Assembly (NCBI GenBank): GCA_913020435.1 | Contig: CAJVZZ010000013.1 | Location: 32,684 to 96,683, forward strand | Reading direction: 5' to 3' | Length of the DNA: 64,000 bases | From: an uncultured Flavobacteriales bacterium | GTDB lineage: Bacteria; Bacteroidota; Bacteroidia; Flavobacteriales_G; Salibacteraceae | Shown: positions 60,259 to 64,000 of the stretch, one piece after another | Layout: each line of letters starts with the position of its first letter | Numbering within the stretch: position 1 is the first letter of the stretch | Notes under the pieces: model-generated | Told to the model about the DNA's origin: nothing | The model's input: only the letters and a program-made list of their open reading frames with translations | Database searches by the model: none | Program-made: the position numbers and the translations under genes

Positions 60259-61389
60259 ATGGAACCAAAAGCCAAATATGTAACCTTAAAGCATCTACTA
60301 ATTGAAAACCAAAAAAAAATTGGACTCCAATTTTACCCCAATAAATTGATTCAAACTGTTGTAAAAGGACTCCCAAAACCTAAGTGGAGCAAGGAATACA
60401 ATATGGCTTACGTTGAAAATACACCTAATAATCTGAATCTAATTTTTAAAGATTTTAAAGGTGTAGCTTGGGTGAATTGCAGTAACTTTTTCCCAAAGCA
60501 TGTACCGACCAAACAAAACGTAGTTGCTTCTGTTGATCATTACCGAAATAGAAAACTGGCTAATGACTACCGACCTTGTCCAGAAGAATTCTTGCAAAAA
60601 CTAGAACTAAAGCACTATGCATTAAACACTTCCAAGGTCTACATTGGAATGTTTGAGCACTTTATCAATTATTTTAAAGAAATAGAACTTTTAGAAATTG
60701 ATGAAGAGATGATAAGAGGTTACTTGCAAACTCTTGTAATTGAAAAAAAATCAGATTCCTACATCAACCAAATGATCAATAGCGTAAAGTTCTACTATGA
60801 AGTGGTCCTGGGCATGCCGAATCGTTTTTACTCGGTTGAACGGCCAAGAAAAAGAGAAACCTTACCTAAAGTAATTAGCAAAGAAGAAGTGAAACTAATA
60901 ATAGAAAATACCAATAACATAAAACATAAGTGTATTGTGAGTTTACTGTATTCGGCAGGACTGCGAAGAGGTGAACTAATTGACCTTAAACTTAACGATA
61001 TTGACAGTAAAAGAATGGTAATTAATGTAAGGCAGGGCAAAGGAAACAAGGATAGAATAACGCTATTAAGCCCTTCTGTATTAGAAGATTTACGAGCCTA
61101 TTTTATAGAATGGAAGCCGAAAATGTACTTGTTTGAAGGACAGAGCGGAAATAAATATAGCGCACAAAGTGTGGCCAAAGTTGTGAAAAACGCCGCAAAA
61201 AAAGCAAAAATAAAGGTGGATATTACCCCACATATACTGAGACATAGTTTTGCTACTCACCTACTTGAAAACGGAACTAACATTCGGTATATCCAAGCTT
61301 TACTTGGGCACTCAAGTACCAAGACCACAGAGATTTACACGCATGTTGCTACCAATAATATTCAAGCGATAAAAAGCCCTTTGGATTAA
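60259..61389 (+). CDS. Tyrosine recombinase/integrase (non-IntI) with ~90-aa extra N-terminal domain
   Basis: GLRRGELIDL (R), GKGNKDR (K), HILRHSFATHLLE (HxxR), LGHSSTKTTEIYTHV (H, Y). The IntI-specific insertion between box I and box II is absent. Likely start 60259. Confidence 0.9.
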   Translation: MEPKAKYVTLKHLLIENQKKIGLQFYPNKLIQTVVKGLPKPKWSKEYNMAYVENTPNNLNLIFKDFKGVAWVNCSNFFPKHVPTKQNVVASVDHYRNRKLANDYRPCPEEFLQKLELKHYALNTSKVYIGMFEHFINYFKEIELLEIDEEMIRGYLQTLVIEKKSDSYINQMINSVKFYYEVVLGMPNRFYSVERPRKRETLPKVISKEEVKLIIENTNNIKHKCIVSLLYSAGLRRGELIDLKLNDIDSKRMVINVRQGKGNKDRITLLSPSVLEDLRAYFIEWKPKMYLFEGQSGNKYSAQSVAKVVKNAAKKAKIKVDITPHILRHSFATHLLENGTNIRYIQALLGHSSTKTTEIYTHVATNNIQAIKSPLD

Positions 61390-61414
61390 ATATATTTGTG
61401 TTTGATACAAAGCG

Positions 61415-61452
61415 GATATATCTACCGGTGGATATATCGAATTGTTAGCAGC
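61415..61452. repeat. attC/attI-like site 1 at the integrase-cassette 1 junction
   Basis: GATATATC-T-ACCGGT-G-GATATATC palindrome (61415-61438) followed by GAATT-GTTAGCAGC (61444-61452). Confidence 0.5.
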
Positions 61453-61460
61453 AACCTAAA

Positions 61461-62144
61461 ATGAAGACATTCACCAAGAAAATATTGCCCTATCTGATTA
61501 CCACTTTGTTGGTAATTGGATTATGGAAAATGTGGACTTGGACAGACAATTACGCTTGGAACCCAAAAGGAAAGGATTTGCTAATGCTCGACATTGCATT
61601 GACTTCTGTATTCTTCTACAAGACAATTTTTTGGTTATTAACAGCGAACCTCTTTGTATTCGGACTTCTCCGACTAAGAAAACGGAAATTCAAAACAGCG
61701 GGACTTGTATTCGCATTAACCCTAACTTATCACTTTACTGTTGGACAAATAATCGACAAAAAATGTGCTTTCCATTACTACTCTGTCTTTCATAACCAAT
61801 CAGTTGCCGAAGGATATATTGTCAGACCGATTGAAGAAGCAGGTTATCAAATTGGACCAATACTGATGGAGGTAATTGAAGACAAAGAAATGAAGTTCAG
61901 ACGATATGCAATTCTTGGACTTCAAAAAATTGACTATCAACCTGCGACTGAACTGATGGGAAATATTCTTTTTGACACTTCAGAATTGAAAATTTTTCGG
62001 GCAGACGCTTACGAAACTCTAAAGGCATTTGATAATGAGAATGGCAAAAAGCTTTTAGTCGAATTCAGGAATCAGGCGAAAGACTCTACAGAAATGAAAA
62101 TTGTTGAACTTGGTGAATATTTTTATGAAAATCGAGAAAAGTAA
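61461..62144 (+). CDS. Cassette 1 cargo: membrane protein with HEAT-like C-terminal region, unknown function
   Basis: Three hydrophobic segments then alpha-helical repeat-like EDKEMKFRRYAILGLQKIDYQPATELMGNILFDTSELKIFRADAYETLKAF. Confidence 0.65.
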   Translation: MKTFTKKILPYLITTLLVIGLWKMWTWTDNYAWNPKGKDLLMLDIALTSVFFYKTIFWLLTANLFVFGLLRLRKRKFKTAGLVFALTLTYHFTVGQIIDKKCAFHYYSVFHNQSVAEGYIVRPIEEAGYQIGPILMEVIEDKEMKFRRYAILGLQKIDYQPATELMGNILFDTSELKIFRADAYETLKAFDNENGKKLLVEFRNQAKDSTEMKIVELGEYFYENREK

Positions 62145-62151
62145 AAAGGCA

Positions 62152-62351
62152 GCTGCTAACACTGTATATAGCAAATAGGGCGTTCGGTGGTTTACGAAAG
62201 TTCAGTGCTATTTACAAACACCGCCAAATCGTTGATTTGGCTTTTAAGAATGAATAAATTAAAAACAAAATACAACGATTTGGCTCAGAGCAAACTTGAA
62301 AACTTATTGCTTCCTACTGCCCTACTTGCCATATACTAATCGTTGGGAATA
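62152..62351. repeat. attC-like site 2 (end of cassette 1 / start of cassette 2), long form
   Basis: GCTGCTAAC (62152-62160); stem GTATATAGCAAATAGGGC (62164-62181) / GCCCTACTTGCCATATAC (62319-62336), 16 of 18 paired; AATC-GTTGGGAATA (62342-62351). Confidence 0.6.
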
Positions 62352-62375
62352 ATTAAAATAGAGAAGAATCATTAA

Positions 62376-63170
62376 ATGGCAAGAGTAAAGGAAATTGATA
62401 AGGGCCGAGTATTAGATGGAATAATTGAAATTAAATTAAGTCATTGGAAGCATTTCCCTAAACTTATAACAAGAGATCTACTTGATTTCCCTTCTTATAT
62501 TTTTAGAGGACAGTCATCGGCCGCATGGAAATTAGATTCTTCGCTTGATAGACTTATTAGAAAAAAGAAAATAAAGCATCCTGATCCTCAAAAACATCTA
62601 AACGCCTTTAAAAATGCTTCTAAAGGACGAAGAGGAAAGAATCCACAAATTCTTGAAAATGATAATGAATGGTGGGCATTGGCGCAACATAACGGCCTTG
62701 CAACCCCTCTACTAGATTTTACTCGTTCTGCCTTTGTCGCATTGTATTTTGCGTTTTGGGATGAGTCCTTTACTGGAAAGGAACGCGCTGTATATGGTCT
62801 CCATTACTATTCTGTAAGAAAAAAAATGAATGAAATAGAAGATGAAGATGAAAATGAAAATGAAAAAGTTGATCTTTTCTACCCAGTTTCAGATGAAAAT
62901 GATCGACTCATTAGTCAATCTGGATTATTCATGAAGATGCCAATAAATTCAGATTTAGAAAATTTGGTTAAGAAGAATTGCAAAGATGACAAGCAAGCTG
63001 CGTTAATAAAGATAATAATACCAAATACGGAAATAGCGAACTGCCTCATTATGCTCAATAAAATGAATATTAACCATTCAACCTTATTTCCTGATTTATA
63101 TGGAGTAGCAAACTATGTAAATTGTTTATTCGACAAACCTAGGTATGATAATATTCAAGACCTTACCTAA
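62376..63170 (+). CDS. Cassette 2 cargo: FRG-domain protein
   Basis: YIFRGQSSAAWKLDSSLDRLI and WWALAQHNGLATPLLDFTRSAFVALYFAFWD match the FRG domain pattern. Confidence 0.85.
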   Translation: MARVKEIDKGRVLDGIIEIKLSHWKHFPKLITRDLLDFPSYIFRGQSSAAWKLDSSLDRLIRKKKIKHPDPQKHLNAFKNASKGRRGKNPQILENDNEWWALAQHNGLATPLLDFTRSAFVALYFAFWDESFTGKERAVYGLHYYSVRKKMNEIEDEDENENEKVDLFYPVSDENDRLISQSGLFMKMPINSDLENLVKKNCKDDKQAALIKIIIPNTEIANCLIMLNKMNINHSTLFPDLYGVANYVNCLFDKPRYDNIQDLT

Positions 63171-63188
63171 GATTAGTAAAAGAAAAAC

Positions 63189-63253
63189 TATTCCCAACAA
63201 TATGTATAGTGCATACCCTGCGGGATACGCACCATACATTAACCGTTATGGGC
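63189..63253. repeat. attC-like site 3 (end of cassette 2 / start of cassette 3), compact form
   Basis: TATTCCCAAC (63189-63198); stem ATGTATAGTGCATACCC (63202-63218) / GGGATACGCACCATACAT (63222-63239) with mismatches and one bulge; AACC-GTTATGGGC (63245-63253). Confidence 0.6.
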
Positions 63254-63409
63254 AAGAAAAAAATCACTCAAAGAGTGACAATAACTCATGTTAAAACTCT
63301 TTTTGTTATAAAATACGCTACCTAGCGTATTGATTTAAGGCAACTCACAAAACACAAAAGGCGTCTTACTTATAGAAGAATGACCTACAACTGATTTAAA
63401 ATCTTAATT

Positions 63410-64000
63410 ATGAAAATAAATAACCTTATTATTCTAACGCTTTCAGTATTTATACATTTGACTTCTATTGGACAAACAACAATACTTACCCTTGACAATG
63501 TTCCTTCAAGTACCCTCTGTAATGAGACTTGGACAGAGCAAAATTTAGATATTAGCTTTGTTACTGGAACTTCTAATGATTGTGGAGAAGGCGCATGCTA
63601 TTTTGGAGTAGAACCGACATTTGTCTGGCTTTACCCATCAAGACTAACTATTGATTTATCAAGTCTACAAAACATTCAATATGTAGAAGTGGACGTTGTA
63701 AGTTATTGTGGAAATATAAATCCTCAATGTACCTATGCTTTTTTGATGGATAGTACTGGGATTATTCTAAACAATGTAGAAAACACAATCAATAATCTAG
63801 GAGAGTCAACAAATGGAGACCCTGAAACCTTAATACTTGAAAATCCTACAGAAGGCTTTATAAGCGAACTCGCTCTTAGTTCTTGTGAAGGTCAGGTTCA
63901 TGAAATACGAATCTATCAGAATGCATTGAGTACTGATCAAATAGAGTTAGATGATAGAGCATTCGCTATTTATCCAAATCCGGGAATAGATATGATCAAT
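63410..64000 (+). CDS. Secreted protein with T9SS type A sorting domain, 3' truncated by the window edge
   Basis: Open frame MKINNLIILTLSVFIHLTSIGQTTILTLDNVPSSTLCNETW... to DDRAFAIYPNPGIDMIN at the window end; not in the ORF track because no stop is reached. Confidence 0.75.
   Translation, partial: MKINNLIILTLSVFIHLTSIGQTTILTLDNVPSSTLCNETWTEQNLDISFVTGTSNDCGEGACYFGVEPTFVWLYPSRLTIDLSSLQNIQYVEVDVVSYCGNINPQCTYAFLMDSTGIILNNVENTINNLGESTNGDPETLILENPTEGFISELALSSCEGQVHEIRIYQNALSTDQIELDDRAFAIYPNPGIDMIN

Follow-up and report, generated by a model that had tools for sequence, protein, structure and literature searches.

In integrons, which underlie mobile antibiotic resistance, a tyrosine recombinase (IntI) is encoded beside an attI site, compact cassettes with a single open reading frame (ORF) each lie in one orientation and carry variable cargo, and the intI gene usually faces away from its cassettes. 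The attC sites of the cassettes have R'', L'', L' and R' arms, with the crossover at GTT, R'' complementing the start of its own cassette, and a bias towards the bottom strand. Two or three extrahelical bases in attC select the strand (PMC2727003), and these bases are accommodated by the insertion domain of IntI, known as I2, which has been described as occurring nowhere else (PMC4792948). In passages of Smyshlyaev et al. 2021 (PMC8138268), the insertion is called essential for integron function, and these passages do not describe cassette arrays for members of the "integron-like" subgroup of tyrosine recombinases that lack it. Within the Bacteroidetes, IntegronFinder 2.0 reported complete integrons for Salinibacter ruber only (PMC9024848). 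Here, we describe a cassette array at the end of a 64,000-nt window (the whole stretch of DNA that was analyzed), which is C13:32684-96683 from a 2.95-Mb draft genome that is 98% complete. We are confident that the array is part of a gene-cassette system of the integron type, and that the recombinase running it does not qualify as IntI, judged by the domain that defines IntI.

In every feature that can be tested from sequence, the system is integron-like, yet it falls outside the family that IntI defines: we looked for the defining insertion, and it is absent. It shares with integrons a tyrosine recombinase encoded beside an attI site, compact single-ORF cassettes that lie in one orientation and carry variable cargo, and attC sites with the four arms, the crossover at GTT, the match of R'' to the start of its own cassette, and the bottom-strand bias, as well as hosting group IIC-type introns and having both chromosomal and plasmid forms. 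It differs in four ways. First, there is no I2 insertion. Second, the recombinases from Bacteroidia have an N-terminal extension of about 100 amino acids (aa), and their cassettes lie past the gene's 3' end. Third, complementarity in the R arm spans about 13 nt and includes a conserved wobble, in place of GTTRRRY. Fourth, the L stem appears to be continuous and there is a one-sided bulge between R and L, versus the extrahelical L-stem bases of canonical attC. The array also resembles CALINs (IntegronFinder's attC arrays without IntI nearby), but unlike them, it has a dedicated non-IntI recombinase and an attI. The recombinases described here may belong to the "integron-like" subgroup (as presented in the passages of PMC8138268 cited above). 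We found no description of such a system in the open-access literature that we searched; preprints and most subscription journals were outside of that search.

In the window, the recombinase gene is followed on the same strand by an attI-like palindrome, two whole single-ORF cassettes, and part of a third. GTT is found at the junctions (61444, 62342, and 63245), and the unit starts given in the initial annotation (61445, 62343, and 63246) correspond exactly to a cut at G^TT. The third unit is incomplete because the contig stops at window base 64000. The initial annotation had described a full tyrosine recombinase and single-ORF units in the same orientation, with a bulged imperfect palindrome at each junction, and all of this holds: on the folded bottom strand, the bulge is one-sided, 1-3 nt, between R and L. 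The attI-like palindrome had been missed. The features are:

60259-61389, + strand: cassette recombinase, a tyrosine recombinase of 376 aa from the ATG, with an N-terminal extension of about 100 aa and without an IntI-type insertion
61384-61402, + strand: leader block GATTAAATATATTTGTGTT, which overlaps the recombinase's stop codon and recurs at other attI-like loci of the genome
61412-61446, + strand: attI-like site, palindrome GGATATATC...GATATATC and then AATT-GTT, with three exact copies in the genome
61445-62342, + strand: cassette 1, bounded by G^TT
61461-62144, + strand: ORF of cassette 1, 227 aa, with a hydrophobic N-terminus and weak similarity to HEAT repeats
62149-62353, + strand: attC-like site 1, with R'' at 62152-62160 and R' from 62342 (R' is contributed by the next cassette)
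62343-63245, + strand: cassette 2, bounded by G^TT
62376-63170, + strand: ORF of cassette 2, 264 aa, with an FRG domain and a match to the candidate phage-defence family PDC-S15 (E = 1.6e-84)
63187-63256, + strand: attC-like site 2, with R'' at 63190-63198 and R' from 63245
63246-64000, + strand: start of cassette 3, truncated by the end of the contig, with an ORF from 63410

A recombinase without the IntI insertion

The recombinase has all of the catalytic residues (R-K-H-R-H-Y), the tyrosine being Tyr360. The absence of the IntI insertion, which had been noted before, is borne out by the spacing from GKG to HxLRH: 65 residues in this protein and 64-66 across it and 37 relatives. Xer proteins have 67-73, and each of the 20 IntI proteins that we tested has 107. 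If this were a canonical integron with an IntI that has simply diverged, that would explain why the integron-integrase profile TIGR02249 matches with 193 bits, why VchIntIA (2a3v) is among the best Foldseek matches, and why the C-terminal SPLD is common to this protein and IntI. However, the TIGR02249 score is below the cutoff of 265 bits, and the match is split into two stretches. Also, IntI proteins form a separate clade (support 100/100) with the query's family outside of it, and the recombinase faces its cassettes. Given the missing insertion as well, a divergent IntI is very unlikely. For the defining insertion, the canonical-integron reading is refuted, as the insertion is absent from the recombinase and from the 37 relatives.

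The initial annotation called the recombinase "Xer-like". That wording needs adjustment, since XerC/D are further from the protein than XerA and IntI are. The best NCBIfam model is XerA_Arch (230 bits, above the cutoff), and the predicted structure (pLDDT 83.8) has archaeal XerA (4a8e and 5hxy), which are the closest solved structures, and VchIntIA as its best Foldseek matches. The catalytic residues are also the same as in XerA, XerC, and XerD. Unlike those proteins, this recombinase has the N-terminal extension and is tied to arrays of hairpin cassettes. The window's genome encodes two other tyrosine recombinases, both of which group with E. coli XerC/XerD; the array's recombinase is not the genome's housekeeping Xer, an identity that would have counted against the initial annotation.

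In phylogenetic trees, the recombinase groups with IntI and XerA, apart from XerC/D. A clade of cassette recombinases without I2, IntI, and IS91-linked recombinases has support of 100/99 (100/98 with more taxa), and within it about five lineages, IntI among them, form a polytomy. Approximately unbiased (AU) tests rejected neither a Bacteroidia-only clade (p = 0.38) nor the placement of IntI on the Xer side (p = 0.33), so we do not claim that the nesting of IntI is shown. Also near IntI in the trees are plasmid recombinases from Sinorhizobium, Sagittula, and Agathobacter (L156, L157, and L158) that are encoded beside IS91-family transposases.

Cassettes, breakpoints, and attI-like sites

Each whole cassette in the window begins with the reverse complement of a sequence near its own end. 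Unit 1 opens with GTTAGCAGC, the reverse complement of its R'', GCTGCTAAC (62152-62160), where its terminal palindrome begins; unit 2 opens with GTTGGGAAT, which is likewise the reverse complement of its R'', ATTCCCAAC (63190-63198). Because each palindrome opens with the reverse complement of the same cassette's start, it can close only on a circular cassette. Just three such pairs of start and R'' (200-3,000 nt apart, then TAT) are present in the whole window, and two of them are the cassettes' own. We aligned 40 palindromes from 3' of the recombinase's relatives and built a covariance model (R1). The model was trained on other genomes only, so the window's sites are outside of the training set. 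Its only matches in the window are the two cassette sites (E = 1.6e-10 and 6.3e-9). At related loci, R'' matches all six of the variable bases that follow GTT in its own unit for 74 of 81 consecutive model matches, as compared to 33 of 1,660 random pairings (2%) and, when the palindrome's opposite end is used, 3 of 119. The complementarity reaches about 13 nt and contains a single conserved mismatch, A.C, that is a T.G wobble on the bottom strand.

The 40 aligned sites also show covariation: 12 pairs have changed on both sides, and the score is 0.331, versus 0.079 for shuffled alignments and at most 0.058 for slid alignments. The stem positions that are A.C on the top strand and T.G wobbles on the bottom strand are 27-123 (in all 40 sites) and 22-130 (in 31 of 40). 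With DNA parameters, the bottom strand folds more stably for 105 of 119 sites in array form and for 74 of 78 in circle form (the difference for controls was -0.16 kcal). The L arms are 16 nt each and have no conserved bulge, although single-nucleotide bulges occur in a minority of sites; the stem is most often interrupted where the R and L arms meet, by the one-sided bulge of 1-3 nt. No Rfam family spans the attC-like sites, and the only Rfam matches nearby were TPP, Flavo-1, and group II introns.

Cassettes at related loci range from 0.36 to 3.3 kb. The main ORF points away from the recombinase in 85 of 91 cases (6 are reversed), with a median of 28 nt from the junction to the start codon and 14 nt from the stop codon to R''. 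The cargo differs from cassette to cassette: 83 ORFs have a mean column identity of 5% and include 54 Pfam families. Elsewhere in the window's genome (C8:80000-90000, L186), two neighboring ORFs, which look like acyltransferases by eye, are each followed by an attC-like site.

In comparisons of sequences, breakpoints are at GTT, as the initial annotation had predicted. In genome G255, two copies of the recombinase and attI are 99.0% identical over 1,237 nt; the identity ends exactly at the GTT of attI, and the cassettes beyond it differ. Two copies in G303 are 99.7% identical over 1,603 nt and also diverge at the GTT of attI, just past ATTGTTGG. In Arenibacter arenosicollis (L023), a 777-bp cassette is present twice, with zero mismatches, and is bounded by CGTT and CCGTT. 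Xanthomarina and Gelidibacter have a 93.7% identical cassette in common, which begins exactly at a junction. In the nearest relative of the window's locus (L006, with 87% identity), the upstream neighbors are kept, and the DNA is different after AATT-GTT. These comparisons of sequences point to gain, loss, or duplication of cassettes with breakpoints at G^TT.

Group II introns provide an independent and orthogonal recognition of the attC-like sites. Group IIC-attC introns are known to target TTGT/T within R'', on the bottom strand of attC (PMC7923331). At the attC-like sites described here, antisense group II introns occupy the R'' arm, with five copies spread over two arrays of G303 (L160 and L161) and one on the Chondrinema litorale plasmid NZ_CP111070 (L155), where the exon junction is TTGT/TA. 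An antisense group II intron is also present at the 3' end of L031.

Could the palindromes instead be terminators, or mobile hairpin repeats (similar to repetitive extragenic palindromes, REP, or miniature inverted-repeat transposable elements, MITE), lying between genes that are not in mobile cassettes? The palindromes begin right after stop codons and could also terminate transcription, and group II introns target terminators too (PMC7923331). But each R'' pairs with the beginning of its own unit and not its neighbor's, the chains begin at a fixed attI, and the duplicated or transferred units span GTT to GTT. They are also linked, on the same strand, to one family of recombinases. We reject this alternative on these grounds, and it has hardly any chance of being right.

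Turning to the fixed end of the array, the first cassette starts 39-63 nt past the recombinase's stop codon at 27 loci, behind a palindrome of variable sequence and GTT. The window's 35-bp attI-like site has three mismatch-free copies in its genome: on C13 (window 61412-61446), at C10:98074-98108, and at C18:1176-1210 (a control with the reversed pattern gave 0). The C18 copy is followed by a cassette with an R'' that exactly matches its own start and an attC that closely resembles the one of cassette 1 in the window, with no recombinase adjacent. There are also degenerate attI-like copies, with a common leader that overlaps the recombinase's stop codon, at C1:13706, C4:22249, C5:106673, and C8:87253. 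Own-start pairing was not found at the degenerate attI-like loci on C1, C4, C5, C8, and C10. We count only C13 and C18 as intact platforms, because only they have exact R'' partners. After the C10 copy comes a large ORF (840 aa) that resembles DUF262/GmrSD-type proteins by eye. The dispersed copies coexist with a single cassette recombinase, and it is possible that one recombinase serves several attI sites in trans. Dispersal was seen in the window's genome only; attI probes from G004 and G001 each found a single copy in those genomes.

Linkage to the recombinase across genomes

Relatives of the recombinase (45-87% identity) are present at 80 named genome loci, mostly from Flavobacteriia, with some from Cytophagales and Bacteroidales-type hosts. 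At 72 named loci, we found 134 matches to R1, of which 133 are on the recombinase's strand. With partial matches and those on the window's contig adjusted for, 130 matches were scored (72 loci and the window's contig), and 123 of these are downstream of the recombinase, even though 71% of the DNA is upstream. The initial annotation's idea of integron-like cassette capture is supported by these neighborhoods of palindrome-bounded ORFs. At 20 loci with 37-68% identity, 98 of 100 matches are on the recombinase's strand. Contigs also tend to end near the arrays: of 67 minus-strand recombinases, 25 retain less than 1.5 kb of downstream sequence, versus 6 of 83 plus-strand recombinases with less than 1.5 kb upstream.

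We also searched 297 genomes of the window's class, the large group of marine Flavobacteria and their relatives (completeness of at least 90%), with thresholds of E ≤ 0.01 for the sites and E ≤ 1e-60 for the recombinase. About half of the genomes (153) have sites, and 137 have a match to the recombinase. When a recombinase and a site are within 20 kb of each other in these random genomes, the site is downstream and on the same strand in all 25 cases.

It is conceivable that the array is real but a fossil, moved by some other enzyme (a canonical IntI elsewhere, or XerC/D), and that the adjacent recombinase is a bystander. Some genomes without a detected recombinase do have attC-like sites, similar to CALINs, and R1-like sites lie beside one canonical IntI (L207). 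But all 25 pairs are co-located as described, and the attI lies directly behind the recombinase gene. Furthermore, in a sample of the phylum, canonical IntI is present in 97 of 349 genomes, and just one of the 97 is in the window's class; at the same threshold, the window's genome has no match to IntI. We regard a bystander recombinase as extremely improbable.

Several observations do weigh against our interpretation. Among 30 genomes of other classes that were chosen for having canonical IntI, 12 have R1-like sites (eight of the 12 also carry a relative of the recombinase without I2). At least one locus (L207, G378 C116) has a true IntI with R1-like attC in the canonical position. So the attC types of IntI and non-IntI systems overlap, and the sites do not separate cleanly. 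Also, 16 of 107 cassettes lack any ORF that reaches 60 aa. The seed sites for R1 were picked partly for own-start complementarity; this circularity is addressed by units outside of the training set, of which 49 of 56 consecutive ones match at all six variable positions. Finally, it is the recombinase's position and the breakpoints that suggest that it catalyzes the cassette reaction.

The orientation of the array had been described as cassettes 3' of the integrase's stop codon, which holds for the window and for the 25 pairs from its class. It does not hold for all relatives in other classes: four relatives without I2 (L202, L203, L204, and L206), from genomes that also have a canonical IntI, are 278-306 aa, lack the N-terminal extension, and face away from R1-type arrays, as canonical intI does.

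Two of the matches (L022 and L082) are labeled as metagenome-assembled genomes of Saccharospirillaceae and Desulfurellales; these are probably misbinned contigs from Bacteroidota, or else transfers. Scanning IMG/VR with the recombinase found no relative, and searching phage records with the array's DNA found no match. Just 5' of the window's recombinase, a small ORF (59788-60141, - strand) with weak similarity to zinc fingers is conserved in L006 and is possibly a fixed neighbor.

Proposed mechanism and implications

We propose that the recombinase would bind the double-stranded attI-like palindrome just 3' of its own gene, as well as the folded bottom strand of the attC-like hairpin on a circular single-ORF cassette. 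Strand exchange at the G^TT of attI and attC would then insert the cassette beside the gene, oriented so that its ORF points away from attI. Reactions between two attC sites would lead to the excision and shuffling of cassettes. That the bottom strand is the substrate, and the exact position of the cut, are suggested by the sequences of the sites. Strand choice may depend on the T.G wobbles and the one-sided R/L bulge, and not on the extrahelical bases and insertion domain that IntI uses. The absence of both the conserved L-stem bases and I2 is internally consistent, and there may be a causal link between the two.

More broadly, and tentatively, integron-type recombination might predate IntI. 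In this scenario, cassette recombinases would comprise about five lineages, from a radiation centered on the Bacteroidota, with only the IntI lineage carrying I2; I2 would be a later addition that is dispensable for single-strand cassette recombination. If so, the outward-facing relatives that lack both I2 and the N-terminal extension would be living stem-integrons.

IntI and its insertion have served both to define integrons and to find them. A widespread system that resembles integron recombination but lacks the insertion makes both the origin of integrons and the necessity of the domain directly testable, and it may offer a view of how integrons arose. Tools that rely on IntI have probably missed the gene capture in roughly half of the Bacteroidia genomes sampled, including the capture of candidate phage-defence cassettes.

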